Origin: Pseudomonadales bacterium
Lineage (GTDB): Bacteria; Pseudomonadota; Gammaproteobacteria; Pseudomonadales; Azotimanducaceae
Assembly (NCBI GenBank): GCA_028285415.1
Contig: JANQPF010000005.1
Location: 372,001 to 436,000 of the forward strand
Direction of reading: 5' to 3'
Length of the DNA: 64,000 nt
Shown here one piece after another: positions 38,998 through 44,373 of the stretch (its first letter is position 1; each line of letters starts with the position of its first letter). Under the pieces are notes generated by a model, which saw only the letters and a list, made by a program, of their open reading frames with translations, ran no database searches and had not been told where the DNA came from. The position numbers were made by a program, and so were the translations under genes.

Positions 38998-40005
38998 GTG
39001 ACTTTCAATATTCTGTGGCCGGCCATGCGCTGGCCCGATAACCGTGAAATCGAAGTGGCGAGCGTGGCTGAGCACAGCGCTCAGTTTTGCGAACGCTTTG
39101 CCGACGTGACGCCTGAGCAATGGGCCAGCTGCGACGCCATCGTCAGCGTCAACGATGTCCCGCAGGAATATCGCGAGCAGATGACCAACTGCCGCATCTT
39201 CGTCACGCCCAAGGTGGGCTTCGACAATATCAACCTCCGCGAGTGGGCGGAAATTGGCATCCCGGTTTGTAACGTTCCCGACTACGGTACGCAGGAGGTA
39301 GCCGACCACGCCATGGCGCTGATGCTGTCGCTCATGAAAGGCATTACTTTTCATACCCGCGAGCTGAAGCAGGACCCGCGTGGCCTGTGGCGCCCCGCGC
39401 TGAATCCATACGGCAAGCGCCTGTCAGTTTGCGTGTGCGGTATTGTCGGTCTGGGCCGAATTGGTACTGCGGCGGCGCTGCGTGCCAAAGCGTTCGGCAT
39501 GGATGTGGTCATGTACGATCCGTATCGGGAAAACGGTGCGGAGCTGAGTCTGGGCATTCGGCGTGTGCACTCTCTGGAAGCGCTTTTTGCCGAATCCGAT
39601 GTCGTGAGCCTGCACGCGCCCCTGTCTGGAGAGACGGAAAAGCTCATCAACGCCGAAGTGCTTGCCGCCAGCAAACCCGGATTGGTGCTCATCAACACGG
39701 CGCGCGGACCGATCATCGATCTCGATGCGCTGCATGATGCAATGAAGGAAGGTAAGGTGCAGGCTGCAGGACTCGACGTGCTGCCGGAAGAGCCGGCCAA
39801 TCCCGATCATCCACTGATCAAAGCCTGGGCTGCCGACGAAGAGTGGATTGATCACCGCCTGGTGCTGACCCCCCACTCCGCGTTTTTCACGCCCGAAAGC
39901 GTTTACGACATGCGCTTCAAAGGCGGTGAAGTTGCAGTGACTTACCTGAGCGGTGGACGCCTCAACAACTGTGTCAACGAGGAATGGCTGACCAATCCGC
40001 GTTGA
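38998..40005 (+). CDS. D-isomer-specific 2-hydroxyacid dehydrogenase
   Basis: The 335-residue NAD-dependent enzyme has the Rossmann motif GLGRIGTAAALRAKAFG (around residue 149) and the catalytic set: Arg in INTARGPIID, Glu in VLPEEPAN and His in LTPHSAFF. It interconverts 2-oxoacids and D-2-hydroxyacids such as glyoxylate or hydroxypyruvate. The GTG start at 38998 follows GGGGGACAT. It overlaps the queuosine-precursor transporter gene by 22 bases. Confidence 0.93.
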   Translation: MTFNILWPAMRWPDNREIEVASVAEHSAQFCERFADVTPEQWASCDAIVSVNDVPQEYREQMTNCRIFVTPKVGFDNINLREWAEIGIPVCNVPDYGTQEVADHAMALMLSLMKGITFHTRELKQDPRGLWRPALNPYGKRLSVCVCGIVGLGRIGTAAALRAKAFGMDVVMYDPYRENGAELSLGIRRVHSLEALFAESDVVSLHAPLSGETEKLINAEVLAASKPGLVLINTARGPIIDLDALHDAMKEGKVQAAGLDVLPEEPANPDHPLIKAWAADEEWIDHRLVLTPHSAFFTPESVYDMRFKGGEVAVTYLSGGRLNNCVNEEWLTNPR

Positions 40006-40772
40006 GTACTCCCGTGCAGCCTGATTACCACAAGCGCCGTCAGCGTGTGTTTCTCGTGCTGTCCGGGATTTTCCTGGGCACGCTTGCGCTTCTGAACGTG
40101 CTCGGCATCAGCCGGTTCATAGATCTTTCTTTTGACGTGTTCGGGGTGAGCATTCCGATGGTGGTCGCAGTTGGCGTCTTACCCTATCCCGTGACGTTCA
40201 TGTGCACGGATCTCATCAGCGAGCTCTATGGTGAAAAGAAGGCCCGCGACATGGTCTGGGTGGGGGTGCTCCTGAACGGTTGGGTCATTTTCCTTCTGTG
40301 GCTCGGTGGCGCGCTGCCCGGATTTGAGCCTATGGATCCGAGCACCGGCACGCCGATGCTCGATGAAGCGGGGCGGTTGCCGGTGTTCTTTGAAGTGCGC
40401 GAACTTGCCTTCGGCGCGGTTGCCGCGTCCATGCTTGCCTATCTGGTTGCGCAGTTCTGCGACGTGCGCCTGTTTCACTTCTGGAAGAAGATCACCCGGG
40501 GCAGGCACTTGTGGCTGCGCAACAACGCTTCGACCATGGTCAGCCAGATCGTCGACACAACCGCGGTGATTCTGATTACGCATTTCTACGCGTCAGCGTT
40601 GCCCATCAACGACGCCGAGGCGCTGTGGCCGCAGCTGCTCACGTTCATCGCCTCCGGGTACGTCTTCAAGCTGCTGGTGGCGTTTCTCGACACAGGCCCG
40701 ATTTATCTTGCGGTGCGCTATCTCAGGCCTTATCTGGGACTCCAGGGAACCGAGGAAGCGCGCGACGACTGA
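39984..40772 (+). CDS. yhhQ: Queuosine precursor transporter, VUT family
   Basis: The 262-residue membrane protein belongs to the YhhQ/VUT family, which imports 7-cyano-7-deazaguanine-type precursors of queuosine. Six or so helices are visible, with the conserved PYPVTFMCTDLISELYGEKKARDMVWVG region (about residues 67-94) and a later HFWKKITRGRHLWLRNNASTMVSQIVDT segment. The start overlaps the dehydrogenase. Its 3' end overlaps the convergent gene at 40730 by 43 bases. No queuosine biosynthesis gene is adjacent; the PTPS-like gene at 42074 lacks the QueD cysteine. Confidence 0.88.
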   Translation: MADQSALSTPVQPDYHKRRQRVFLVLSGIFLGTLALLNVLGISRFIDLSFDVFGVSIPMVVAVGVLPYPVTFMCTDLISELYGEKKARDMVWVGVLLNGWVIFLLWLGGALPGFEPMDPSTGTPMLDEAGRLPVFFEVRELAFGAVAASMLAYLVAQFCDVRLFHFWKKITRGRHLWLRNNASTMVSQIVDTTAVILITHFYASALPINDAEALWPQLLTFIASGYVFKLLVAFLDTGPIYLAVRYLRPYLGLQGTEEARDD

Positions 40773-41410
40773 GGGTGCGCGGTTGTGATGTTGGCCGGTG
40801 GCACGCCCTCGTAGAAAAGTTCGAACTGCACGGCCCCGGGCATTGCCGAGCGGGTGACTTTGCCTTCCCCGTCTATCTGTAACCACTGAAAGCCCGCGTC
40901 GCTGAACGTCGCATCAACCTCAAAGCGTTCACCCGCGATGACTTCCGTGCCGTACAGGCGACACGGTCGATCGACGTAGACGAGAATCAGGTCCAGACCC
41001 TCGTGCACCGAGCGGAAACCGCCTCCCAGAATCCTCGTCGGGTCACCGCTCAGCACGCCGCCCGTGGCCACGCGCACAATCCGCGTTTCCGGTGGTGCTG
41101 CAGCGATGCCGTTGGCTGGTGGTTCGGCCAGCAGGTTGTATATCGGTTCGGCAAGATATAGCGGGAATGACACCTCCGTTCTGCCCATGCTGGACACGGG
41201 CAGCCTGGTTTCCTCCATCGGCACACCGAACAGGGCGCCGGGCACGGCACCCAGCGTGGCGGTCACGCGTTCAACCGCCGCGGGCGGCTGGGTTGGAACA
41301 AGCTGGACGGTGGCGTCGAGGAAGGCGAGCGTTTGGGCGTGACTGAGCCCTGTGGTGCTCAGAAGCGCAAGCAGCAGGTACCTAGCGCTCAACCTGTCCG
41401 AGGTTCGCAT
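40730..41410 (-). CDS. Exported hypothetical protein at the end of the CULT operon
   Basis: The 226-residue protein has a signal peptide (hydrophobic about 10-22, cut after S-H-A). The mature part is beta-rich, with PTQPPAAVERVTATLGAVPG and GGGFRSVHEGLDLILVYVDRPCRLYG. I do not recognise the family. It is the last gene of the minus-strand run; its start lies 29 bases inside the SDR gene. The convergent 3' end overlaps the transporter gene. Why an exported protein follows pterin-type enzymes is unclear, and it may be a separate unit. Confidence 0.65.
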   Translation of the reverse strand: MRTSDRLSARYLLLALLSTTGLSHAQTLAFLDATVQLVPTQPPAAVERVTATLGAVPGALFGVPMEETRLPVSSMGRTEVSFPLYLAEPIYNLLAEPPANGIAAAPPETRIVRVATGGVLSGDPTRILGGGFRSVHEGLDLILVYVDRPCRLYGTEVIAGERFEVDATFSDAGFQWLQIDGEGKVTRSAMPGAVQFELFYEGVPPANITTAHPQSSRASSVPWSPR

Positions 41411-42077
41411 GCAGCACTGCTCCATTGATGACGGGATTTTGTGCAGCCCACAGGAGTGTGTTGGCGATTTCGTCAGGATGTACCAGCCTTTCGAACGCAC
41501 TCATTGCGCTGATCTGTGGCATGACGTCCTCGGGAACGTGCTGGCGCAGCATCTCGGTATCGGTGAAGCCGGGGCAGACACAGGCTGTGTGAATATTGCG
41601 TCCAGCAAGGTCCTGGCACGTGGCGCGCATCATCCCGACCATTGCGTGTTTAGTCGTGACATAGCTGTAAGAGTTGGGAACGGCTTTCTCCGATAGCGTG
41701 GAACCCACGTACAGCACGCTGGACCCTGCCTGCATGTACGGGATGACGAAGTAGTTGAGCGTGTTGGGGGCCACCAGATTGGTTTCGATGATCTCGCGAA
41801 AGTGGTTGCTGGGTGTTTCCACCGCGCTGTCATTCAGCAGACGGGCTGCGTTGTGTATCAGCACGGTCTCTTCCGCGGACTGCAGGGCGCTGGACAACTG
41901 CGGACCAATCGATTCGATAAAGCCGGGTTCAGACAGGTCGCAGTTGATGTGCGTCACGCTGTCCAGCGGGCAGCGACGACGCGACAGGTTGACGACCTGG
42001 TAGCCGGCTTTGACGAACGCGTCTGCGGTATGCAGCCCGATACCGGCGCTGGCGCCGGTGATGATCAAACACTTCAT
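41382..42077 (-). CDS. Short-chain dehydrogenase/reductase
   Basis: The 231-residue SDR has the NAD(P) motif TGASAGIG (about residues 7-14) and the catalytic YxxxK in SYSYVTTKH, with a preceding Ser region (YVGSTLSEKA). CPGFTDTEM follows the active site as usual. It overlaps the PTPS-like gene by four bases, so it may reduce the pterin product, as pteridine, sepiapterin and dihydromonapterin reductases do; this is inference from context, since SDRs cannot be assigned by sequence alone. Confidence 0.9.
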   Translation of the reverse strand: MKCLIITGASAGIGLHTADAFVKAGYQVVNLSRRRCPLDSVTHINCDLSEPGFIESIGPQLSSALQSAEETVLIHNAARLLNDSAVETPSNHFREIIETNLVAPNTLNYFVIPYMQAGSSVLYVGSTLSEKAVPNSYSYVTTKHAMVGMMRATCQDLAGRNIHTACVCPGFTDTEMLRQHVPEDVMPQISAMSAFERLVHPDEIANTLLWAAQNPVINGAVLHANLGQVER

Positions 42078-42574
42078 TCACTTTTCTCCGCTTGCGACCA
42101 TTCCGCTCTGGCCCACTGCCCGTCTCCGGACGCACACCGCAGCGTGAGCCGCTCAATTTCCAGTTCCTTGATCTCGTTTCTTGCGCGCAGCGAGTCGAGA
42201 AAATACTGAGCCAGCTCCTCGACGGTCACGTTGCGCAGCGGCAGCACGGTAATGTCCCTGTGCAGAAACGGAATGCGTTCTCCGGCGAAAACCACCGTCA
42301 CGTAGTCGTCGCTGTCTTCGACCTCCAGGTACGGCGATTCGCCCGGCATGAGTACCTGTTCATCCAGGGCGTCGCACATGGCCTTCAAGGCCGTCTTCAG
42401 TACATTGTAGTCGAAGGTGAGTCCGTCACAGCCGACGGGCGCGGTTGCGTCGAGTTGGACATGAAAATTGTGACCGTGGAGGTTTTCCCGCTCGGTGGCG
42501 CTGAACAAGGTGAAGTGTGCCGCCGCGAAGTGCAGATACTCCTTGCTGATCTCGATTGTCGTGCGCTGTGTCAT
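42074..42574 (-). CDS. 6-pyruvoyl-tetrahydropterin synthase family protein, PTPS-III-like (ExxHGH)
   Basis: The 166-residue enzyme has the PTPS zinc site: H20 in FAAAHF and H33-G-H35. QueD and canonical PTPS have a catalytic Cys four residues before the first HGH His; here that position is Arg, and the motif reads E30-N-L-H-G-H, the ExxHGH pattern described for PTPS-III. PTPS-III enzymes can convert dihydroneopterin triphosphate to 6-hydroxymethyl-dihydropterin, bypassing FolB. With folK in this window and no folB seen, a folate or tetrahydromonapterin role is likely. It overlaps HAD and SDR genes by four bases each. Confidence 0.85.
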   Translation of the reverse strand: MTQRTTIEISKEYLHFAAAHFTLFSATERENLHGHNFHVQLDATAPVGCDGLTFDYNVLKTALKAMCDALDEQVLMPGESPYLEVEDSDDYVTVVFAGERIPFLHRDITVLPLRNVTVEELAQYFLDSLRARNEIKELEIERLTLRCASGDGQWARAEWSQAEKSE

Positions 42575-43260
42575 GTCTCAATGGCGTCGGCAAACGCCTG
42601 CAGGCTGTCGAAGGTCCAGGTTGGGTTTGCTTCGACAGGCCGGGCGGCGCCGCGACTCGGGCGGTTTATCCATACGGTGTCCCAGCCTAGCTCGGTGGCT
42701 GGCAAAATATCGTGAAAGCGGCTCTGCGCAACGTGCAGGATAGGACCCTCGACCGCCGCCGCTGCGGCATCGAACATCGCGCGGTCCGGTTTGTACACGC
42801 CAACGTCACCGGCGGTGATGACATGGCTGAACGCGACGCCCAGCGTCTGCTGGCTGTGGGCAAATAGATCCGTGTCCACGTTCGAGACGATGGCCAGATC
42901 AAAGTGCTGTTCGAGCTGGCGCAGCGCATGGTGACTGTCGGCAAAGGCCGGCCAGTATTGAATGCTGTCGGCAAGCCCGGCCAGCACGTCGTCGGTCGGC
43001 GTAAAGCCGAGGCGCGTGGCGAAGCTCTGCATGACGCGGGACAGCACCTCAGCGTAGCTGCCGCCCTCAGCCTGTGCGGCGGGCTCGAGTTCGCTGAAGT
43101 AGGTCAGCACCCATTCGTCGATCACGTTGGCGTAGTAGCTCTGCAGCAGCGGCTGCAGATAGCCGAGGATACCGGTTTCCCAGTCGATGAGCGTCCCGTA
43201 GCAGTCGAACGTCAGAGATTTGTAGTCTGCGGCTTTGATTACCCTGTCCGCATTGCTCAC
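42571..43260 (-). CDS. HAD-superfamily hydrolase, haloacid-dehalogenase type II-like
   Basis: The 229-residue protein has the HAD motifs: nucleophile D19 in LTFDCYGTLIDWE, the IVSNVDT Ser/Asn, the GVYKPDRAMF lysine and a C-terminal acidic motif. The first motif has Tyr two residues after the Asp (D-C-Y-G-T), as in 2-haloacid dehalogenases and some phosphatases. Its position between the CULT and PTPS genes, with four-base overlaps on both sides, suggests it removes a phosphate or similar group from the same metabolite. Confidence 0.9.
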   Translation of the reverse strand: MSNADRVIKAADYKSLTFDCYGTLIDWETGILGYLQPLLQSYYANVIDEWVLTYFSELEPAAQAEGGSYAEVLSRVMQSFATRLGFTPTDDVLAGLADSIQYWPAFADSHHALRQLEQHFDLAIVSNVDTDLFAHSQQTLGVAFSHVITAGDVGVYKPDRAMFDAAAAAVEGPILHVAQSRFHDILPATELGWDTVWINRPSRGAARPVEANPTWTFDSLQAFADAIET

Positions 43261-43646
43261 GGTTCCTCCTGTATGCGATCAATGATGAGCCCGTAAAAAA
43301 AATCGTCCGTGTTGGCGAAATACCAGCCCAGGTGCGTATGGCACTCGCTGCAGCTCGCCAGGCGCCAGAAATAGCCCATGAACCAGGTGTCCGCCGCCTC
43401 TGCAGCGCCGGATATGTCGCACCCCAGAGCGTTGGCAAAACACCCTACATGAAAGCGGATGCCATGTGGATTCGTGAAGTGATGGGCGTGACTGCCGTTG
43501 ACCTCGATGCGCTCGGTGGCTTTCGAGATGACGTTCGAGCAAGTGGCGCAATAGATGAAACTTTTGTCATCTGTCTCCTCGATCTCTAACATCGACTTCA
43601 AACTGGGATCCAGCGTTGAAGCAGGCGGGTTGTCGACTTCGCTCAT
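43257..43646 (-). CDS. Single-domain CULT (cereblon/thalidomide-binding-like) protein
   Basis: The 129-residue protein has the cereblon CULT domain in full. Zinc-site cysteines are C33, C36, C99 and C102. The three cage tryptophans are W88, W94 and W108, spaced 6 and 14 residues as in human cereblon (W380, W386, W400), and F110 matches F402. N59-P60-H61-G62 falls at the place of human N351-P-H-G, 29 residues before the first Trp. The residue at human H378 is D86. Bacterial single-domain CULT proteins are known to bind cyclic imides and uridine; their role is unknown. It is the first gene of the operon and overlaps the HAD gene by ATGA. Confidence 0.88.
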   Translation of the reverse strand: MSEVDNPPASTLDPSLKSMLEIEETDDKSFIYCATCSNVISKATERIEVNGSHAHHFTNPHGIRFHVGCFANALGCDISGAAEAADTWFMGYFWRLASCSECHTHLGWYFANTDDFFYGLIIDRIQEEP

Positions 43647-43698
43647 GTTTCGTTACCAGCTGGCAGGACTGACAAATTACGTCTGCTCGGGCAAATAT

Positions 43699-44373
43699 AT
43701 GGCTCTGCAAACATTCTCTAGCATCTTCGAGCGCGCTGCCGAGCGCAAGGGTGGCGTATCTGCGCTGGAAGATTTGCTGGGCAAACCAAAAACCGCGGCT
43801 CAGTTGAAAAAGGTTGCCGACGGCGAGGTGCTGGCGGAAATGACCAAGTGTGTTTTCCGCTCGGGATTCGTCTGGAAGGTGATTGAAAACAAGTGGCCGG
43901 GATTCGAGAAGGCATTCCATGGTTTCGACGTGACCCGCTGCGCGATGCTCTCTGACGAAGAGATGGAAGCGTTGGCCGACAATGCGGAAATTGTGCGTAA
44001 CGCCAAGAAAATAGAAAGCGTCCGCAGGAACGCCCAGTATGTGCTCGACGTCAGGGGTGAGCACGGCAGCTTCGGTAATTACCTTGCCGCCTGGCCGGAG
44101 GATGACTTTATCGGTCTCTGGGATGAGCTCAAGAAGCGTGGCGACCGTCTGGGCGGGCAGACGGGACGGTTTTTCCTCCGTTTCATAGGCCGCGATACGC
44201 CGATGTTCTCGAAAGACGTTGTCAAGGCAATGATCGGTGCCGGCGTGGTCGACAAAGAGCCGACCGGGAAAGCTGCGCTCAACGCCACCCAGGAGGCGTT
44301 CAATCAATGGCGCGCGGAGAGCGGCCGTACATACACCGAAATCTCCCGCGTTCTCGCTTTGTCTGTGGACTGA
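43699..44373 (+). CDS. tag: DNA-3-methyladenine glycosylase I family protein
   Basis: The 224-residue protein has the Tag helical fold: FSSIFERAAERKGG, the central CVFRSGFVWKVIENKWPGFEKAFHGF region (the Trp-rich base pocket) and the later LRFIGRDTPMFSKDVVKAMIGAGV. It removes 3-methyladenine from DNA. Some key residues differ from E. coli Tag and the C-terminal zinc-finger cysteines are not seen, so it is a divergent member. ATG at 43699 is preferred because earlier in-frame ATGs would overlap the divergent CULT gene. map follows four bases after the stop. Confidence 0.85.
   Translation: MALQTFSSIFERAAERKGGVSALEDLLGKPKTAAQLKKVADGEVLAEMTKCVFRSGFVWKVIENKWPGFEKAFHGFDVTRCAMLSDEEMEALADNAEIVRNAKKIESVRRNAQYVLDVRGEHGSFGNYLAAWPEDDFIGLWDELKKRGDRLGGQTGRFFLRFIGRDTPMFSKDVVKAMIGAGVVDKEPTGKAALNATQEAFNQWRAESGRTYTEISRVLALSVD

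Follow-up and report, generated by a model that had tools for sequence, protein, structure and literature searches.

In the family of Gammaproteobacteria to which the sequenced genome belongs, a small relative of the thalidomide-binding domain of human cereblon (CULT) is often encoded directly ahead of a HAD-superfamily hydrolase that almost never occurs without it. The window, a stretch of 64,000 nucleotides from a Pseudomonadales bacterium (GenBank assembly GCA_028285415.1, contig JANQPF010000005.1, positions 372,001 to 436,000), carries this pair at the head of a four-gene run on the minus strand, CULT, HAD, PTPS and SDR, with a 4-base overlap at every junction (Table 1). This overlapping operon, absent from the first-pass annotation, is the informative part of the locus. 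The predicted fold and cage residues of CULT, the overlapping genes, a one-way dependence of HAD on CULT and a single HAD clade are all seen directly; the chemistry proposed below would follow by analogy. The natural role of the CULT domain, thalidomide's target, is unsettled, and the accessible text of PMC4287342 and PMC4449219 assigns no role to bacterial CULTs, in agreement with the first-pass annotation; the main text of PMC4287342 makes no mention of an operon, neighbouring genes or genomic context. A HAD family nearly confined to genomes with CULT, and encoded in a gene that overlaps or adjoins it, offers a first concrete lead to the function of a bacterial cereblon relative, and the pair (129 and 229 residues) makes that question testable as an enzyme-plus-binder problem. 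The family of the window CULT is already described. In the literature searched, which took in few subscription papers, no match among those listed dealt with the dedicated HAD partner, with the four-gene operon or with the Anbu link described below.

Table 1. Features of the CULT operon and its surroundings, in window coordinates
Feature	Position	Strand	Remark
CULT protein CDS	43257..43646	minus	129 aa; start ATG 43646
First zinc pair C33-x-x-C36	43539..43550	minus	zinc site predicted from residues
N59-P60-H61-G62 loop	43461..43472	minus	alignment of CULTs
D86, equivalent of human H378 and MsCI4 F77	43389..43391	minus	alignment and numbering in the accessible text of PMC8900816
Cage tryptophans W88 to W94	43365..43385	minus	alignment of CULTs
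Second zinc pair C99-x-x-C102	43341..43352	minus	zinc site predicted from residues
Cage W108-x-F110	43317..43325	minus	alignment of CULTs
AGGAGG, Shine-Dalgarno-like	43265..43270	minus	inside CULT 3' end, just before HAD GTG; read from sequence
HAD-superfamily hydrolase	42571..43260	minus	229 aa; GTG start; 4-base overlap with CULT stop; PF00702
PTPS-like protein	42074..42574	minus	166 aa; 4-base overlap with HAD; PF01242
Short-chain dehydrogenase/reductase (SDR)	41382..42077	minus	231 aa; 4-base overlap with PTPS; PF13561
Vut_1 family (YhhQ-type) transporter	39984..40772	plus	convergent with operon; near PTPS-SDR in many relatives
3-methyladenine glycosylase (Tag)-like gene	43651..44373	plus	divergent; start 43651 inferred

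The first-pass annotation had placed the CULT gene correctly at 43257-43646 and gave no strand, which is minus. The reading frame encodes a true single-domain CULT protein, a new member of the known family. Its best PDB match is MsCI4 (phmmer, E 2.5e-21), and cereblon chains match at E 5e-9 to 1.9e-7. These E values, the matches in relatives and the excess of synonymous change against the closest relative compared (54 changed codons synonymous and 31 non-synonymous; third codon positions account for 68 of the 109 base differences) put the match far beyond chance. The sole Pfam match is Yippee-Mis18 (PF03226), which at 22.2 bits and E 1.7e-4 lies below the gathering score of 26.6. The protein has two CxxC motifs predicted to hold one zinc (C33, C36, C99, C102), three cage tryptophans and a basal aromatic at fixed spacing (W88, W94, W108, F110) and an NPxG loop (N59-P60-H61-G62), behind an N-terminus, MSEV..LDP.L, that is similar in close relatives. 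It is not a cereblon proper, as the 129-residue single-domain frame has no LON domain and DDB1-binding region before the CULT domain. The first-pass annotation held that these elements are spaced exactly as in human cereblon. By the human numbering C323, C326 and N351, the first CxxC and NPHG are two residues further apart in human cereblon than in the window protein, so that the exact match does not extend to every human element. The tryptophan spacing is the human one, and against MsCI4 all intervals are identical (C36-N59 23, N59-W88 29, W88-W94 6, W94-W108 14, W108-F110 2). The equivalence of the cage tryptophans and D86 to human W380, W386, W400 and H378 is taken from the accessible text of PMC8900816.

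Structure prediction points the same way. An AlphaFold2 model, made from an alignment of 56 sequences (the window CULT and CULT loci from the contig search), has a mean pLDDT of 86.9. Block means reach 92-98 once past residue 30, whereas residues 1-30 form a low-confidence tail (pLDDT 51-63). With this model as the query, Foldseek ranks MsCI4 structures top in the PDB and cereblon next; nine of the ten best rows have an rmsd of 1.4-1.6 A, and the target-normalised TM is about 0.9. The predicted fold is a beta-tent like that of MsCI4, with cage and zinc residues present, rather than the fold lacking cage or zinc site that would have told against the first-pass annotation. Its description, a CULT protein of bacterial type whose ligand cage is intact, is supported by the phmmer match, the aligned cage residues and this predicted fold. 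In the alignments and tree MsCI4 is represented by the 4v32 chain, a Y101F mutant whose cage-base F is not wild type.

How is CULT distributed? A match was found in 34 of 97 relative genomes and in 29 of 369 genomes sampled from the class, two sets that both contain the window's genome. Within the family, 96 of 206 genomes have a match, and these belong to 24 of its 37 genera. The CULT clade takes in a contig of Candidatus Azophilus lithoversatilis (Candidatus Azotimanducaceae, Pseudomonadales). Carriage by plasmids or phages was dropped as an explanation, since 72,556 plasmid and 50,697 phage records gave no CULT match at E 1e-3.

In the family, the HAD gene is almost always accompanied by CULT. 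A profile of 11 CULT-linked HADs at E <= 1e-25 matched 62 of the 206 family genomes; one match (G494, 161.8 bits, on a contig other than that of its CULT) was excluded, and the others score at least 296 bits. Sixty genomes have both HAD and CULT, 36 have CULT alone, 109 have neither, and only one of the 61 HAD-bearing genomes, which span 11 genera, is without CULT (Fisher p 2.6e-25, a value that ignores kinship). That genome, G527, has no CULT trace in the 10 kb around its HAD (L232). In 56 of the 60 genomes with both, HAD shares the strand of CULT and lies no more than 200 bases downstream; in the four exceptions the two are 482, 1204 or 2210 bases apart or on different contigs. HAD is also downstream of CULT in 51 of 97 contig stretches with D-type CULTs, a count that is not independent of the family set, as many of these stretches come from the same genomes. 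Among 58 relatives, HAD matches above 40 bits occur only in the two genomes G000 and G009, both next to CULT, and the next best HADs of the 369 class genomes score at most 203 bits. Among 37 CULT loci fetched from other families, not one has this HAD next to CULT; four of the loci (L089, L091, L094, L102) do have other HAD-superfamily genes a few genes away, which are weakly similar and were left out of the HAD tree. The HAD tree places 37 CULT-linked HADs on one side of a branch with support 92/96 (92% of bootstrap trees) and, on the other, nine HADs of other genomes and PDB 3smv, with a long-branch warning; those nine were drawn from the non-clade class matches, with matches of 156 bits or less left out.

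The dependence runs one way, since CULT occurs without HAD in 36 of its 96 family genomes; in the window's own genus HAD is absent from 8 of the 10 CULT-bearing genomes. CULT must then have a use without HAD. On the CULT tree, 41 HAD-linked and 56 PTPS-linked rows lie within one clade of 72 of the 119 rows (support 98/100); some members of this clade have neither HAD nor PTPS. HAD is patchy inside this operon clade, with at least 10 changes forced by the starred branches, as expected of one old CULT-HAD pair with repeated loss; incomplete contigs contribute to the patchiness. The tree omits the incomplete CULTs L110 and L111 and near-duplicate contig rows, carries a few-columns warning, and counts as HAD-linked L030 and L038, whose HAD matches are in pieces and were left out of the HAD tree. 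At both of these loci the HAD downstream of CULT looks broken and the CULT frame is still open.

A short motif, LDPxL, lies in the CULT N-terminal tail. Of the contig CULTs, 52 of the 76 in the operon clade carry it, against 0 of the 14 D-type CULTs that fall elsewhere (membership assigned by hand); it is also seen in 21 of 24 family loci vs 1 of 37 other loci. A role as a HAD docking peptide was dropped, because close relatives without HAD also keep the motif.

Taken with these counts, the HAD directly downstream is, tentatively, the nearest functional partner of CULT in this lineage. What might the enzyme do? Its closest PDB entry is 3smv, L-azetidine-2-carboxylate hydrolase (E 4.7e-41; 42% identity, 83 of 197 columns). 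By alignment its nucleophile is D19, a position that is Asn in PDB 8yvw, an entry of nearly the same sequence as the azetidine hydrolase chain. HAD phosphatases have a second Asp two residues after the nucleophile; Y21 stands there instead, making a dehalogenase-type hydrolase likelier than a phosphatase. The match to the type II haloacid dehalogenase model TIGR01428 reaches 113.3 bits, below the cut-off of 125.4. A Pseudomonas enzyme of the azetidine-hydrolase kind converts azetidine-2-carboxylate to 2-hydroxy-4-aminobutyrate, and a fungal orthologue is required for use of azetidine-2-carboxylate, according to the accessible text of PMC8016842.

A possible reading, tentative and by analogy with these systems, is that CULT captures a small compound resembling a cyclic imide, and that this compound, or one derived from it, is the substrate of HAD hydrolysis. 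MsCI4 binds glutarimides and uridine in the accessible literature, and the title of PDB 5ohb describes a bound lactam; by likeness to it, the cage of the window CULT would take small cyclic imides, lactams or uridine. In this scheme the cage would capture a small cyclic imide, lactam or uracil-like compound, whether a metabolite or a damage product. The HAD aspartate would then act as a nucleophile, as HAD homology suggests, and cleave a C-N or C-X bond adjacent to a carboxyl or amide group, much as in L-azetidine-2-carboxylate hydrolase, so opening, detoxifying or recycling the compound or its derivative. The two proteins would also meet. That they share a compound is the weakest step: azetidine cleavage is not imide hydrolysis, so any chemical tie between what the cage binds and what HAD cleaves is guesswork.

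The rest of the operon could suggest another ligand. The third gene matches the PTPS family (PF01242) at 55.8 bits against a gathering score of 22.4 and falls short of QueD (TIGR03367) at 48.9 bits against a cut-off of 89.25. Its product is no simple FolB replacement, because FolB is present in the window's genome; replacement of FolB in folate synthesis was dropped for that reason, FolB having been found in 50 of 58 genomes, the window's included. CULT could be part of a pterin-type unit of PTPS and SDR, with or without the YhhQ transporter, in which it would bind a pterin or lumazine intermediate and D86 would read the pterin 2-amino group. The overlap of CULT, HAD, PTPS and SDR in the window fits such a unit, as does the position of PTPS downstream of CULT, seen in 61 of the 97 stretches with D-type CULTs and at 21 of the first 24 loci fetched from the family. 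However, PTPS is commoner than CULT among the 97 relatives (62, of which 58 score above 100 bits, vs 34), and the PTPS-SDR pair is present in all nine CULT-less genomes fetched (L117-L124 and genomes such as G046, where PTPS and SDR stand alone, distant from any CULT). A YhhQ-type transporter is often with PTPS-SDR, with or without CULT. HAD occurs without a PTPS match in 15 of the 97 D-type stretches, 13 of which have at least 1.5 kb downstream. Gene order around the operon is largely conserved in the family, so that part of the linkage between PTPS and CULT is inherited order; for this reason, and because PTPS-SDR stands without CULT, the PTPS link carries less weight than the HAD link. D86, too, occurs in CULTs without PTPS. 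A pterin role for CULT is on balance unlikely.

D86 itself had been proposed in the first-pass annotation to alter ligand choice. An Asp does replace human H378, and it may shape the mouth of the pocket, yet several observations weaken the proposal. Among 61 aligned CULTs this position is H, F, Y, W, A, N or D, whereas the three cage tryptophans are invariant in all complete sequences. In MsCI4 the equivalent residue, F77, bonds the glutarimide NH through its backbone (accessible text of PMC8900816). D is the usual residue of the operon clade, being present in 22 of 24 family loci, with H in L042 and L047; L052, inside the operon clade, has H as well. D is also found in delta-proteobacterial, Kistimonas, Schekmanbacteria and other CULTs without the operon, and on the CULT tree D is gained or lost about 10 times, with at least five of these changes forced by well supported branches. 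Neither HAD, PTPS nor SDR lies downstream in 21 of the 97 D-type stretches, 13 of which are among the 81 with at least 1.5 kb downstream. These 13 and the tree changes are why D86 was dropped as a pterin-binding marker; it marks no known function.

Upstream of the pair, one genus points in a different direction. In genus g8 the gene before CULT-HAD is Anbu, a proteasome homologue (PDB 5loy, E 7.6e-70; 5nyw, E 1.5e-58; Pfam Proteasome). All ten Anbu-bearing g8 genomes have it on the strand of CULT, upstream and at most about 250 bases away; in G481 the Anbu match is split into two pieces. Loci with Anbu upstream of CULT-HAD are L233, L242, L243, L128, L138, L142, L178, L181, L192 and L221. Human cereblon recognises C-terminal cyclic imides (accessible text of PMC11974815 and PMC12117711). 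This, with the Anbu neighbour, would suit a CULT that reads C-terminal cyclic imides as protein or peptide damage and passes the proteins to repair or proteolysis. The window genome, however, has no Anbu match, and neither do 8 of the 18 CULT-bearing g8 genomes. Anbu is matched in 100 of the 206 family genomes, ten of them in g8, and genomes of other genera with both genes have them on separate contigs or far apart. Such a damage reader is quite unlikely. The Anbu operon partners named in the accessible text of PMC5666114 are a transglutaminase, ATP-grasp and Alpha-E, with no mention of cereblon there, and a full-text search returned no literature joining Anbu and cereblon. Broader still would be a bacterial counterpart of cereblon surveillance, in which CULT reads damage-made cyclic imide ends or free imides, HAD processes them, and one genus has wired the pair to Anbu. 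We regard this as very improbable; were it true, CULT recognition and proteasome-type proteolysis would be linked in bacteria without ubiquitin.

Other lineages place other genes beside CULT. A TauE/SafE-type permease gene lies just upstream on the same strand at six loci in five other families (L089, L091, L094, L097, L109, L110), with a gap under 25 bases in four of the six; the Pfam identification was made on the L094 protein. An RluA-type pseudouridine synthase gene lies 8-92 bases downstream of CULT in three other families (L044, L048, L051; identified by Pfam on the L048 protein), which is of interest since MsCI4 binds uridine. The maps of these loci, and of some g8 loci, come from simple ORF calling rather than annotation. 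In the window, a methionyl aminopeptidase gene, like the Tag-like gene, is divergent from the operon, and a promoter and terminator scan gave 1 and 3 sites, about the level of shuffled sequence.

Could CULT be a general binder of pyrimidines, uridine or small rings, a sensor or buffer whose neighbours are lineage-specific for no functional reason? Its partners do vary by lineage (HAD, PTPS and SDR, Anbu, TauE-type permeases at 6 loci in 5 families, RluA-type genes at 3 loci in 3), and MsCI4 binds uridine in the accessible literature. Random neighbours, however, would not be expected to include a HAD clade that depends on CULT almost strictly, nor reading frames of CULT and HAD that overlap or adjoin. 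A general binder is a serious alternative, though a rather unlikely one.

The closest known system is MsCI4 of Magnetospirillum gryphiswaldense (PDB 4v2y, 4v32), a single domain with the same fold, zinc cysteines, three cage tryptophans and NPxG loop. The two proteins are 35-39% identical, and the window has D86 for F77, F110 for Y101 and H61 for A52. The window gene sits in a HAD/PTPS/SDR operon, while the comparison with MsCI4 covers the protein alone. The PTPS-like protein has as its nearest PDB entries 1y13 and 2a0s, 6-pyruvoyl-tetrahydropterin synthases of Plasmodium; it shares with them the PTPS family and the R-E-x-L-H-G-H active-site region, in which Glu stands where PTPS enzymes usually carry Cys. 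The window HAD shares the Asp nucleophile region FDCYGTLIDWETG with L-azetidine-2-carboxylate hydrolase (PDB 3smv, 8ywo, 9v14), a likeness of sequence, and 3smv stands outside the clade formed by the CULT-linked HADs. The thalidomide-binding domain of cereblon has the same fold and cage residues at about 24% identity in the fold search. The window's F110 and H61 are those of the human protein, where H353 corresponds to MsCI4 A52 (accessible text of PMC8900816), whereas D86 replaces H378, and the LON domain and DDB1-binding region of cereblon have no counterpart in the window.
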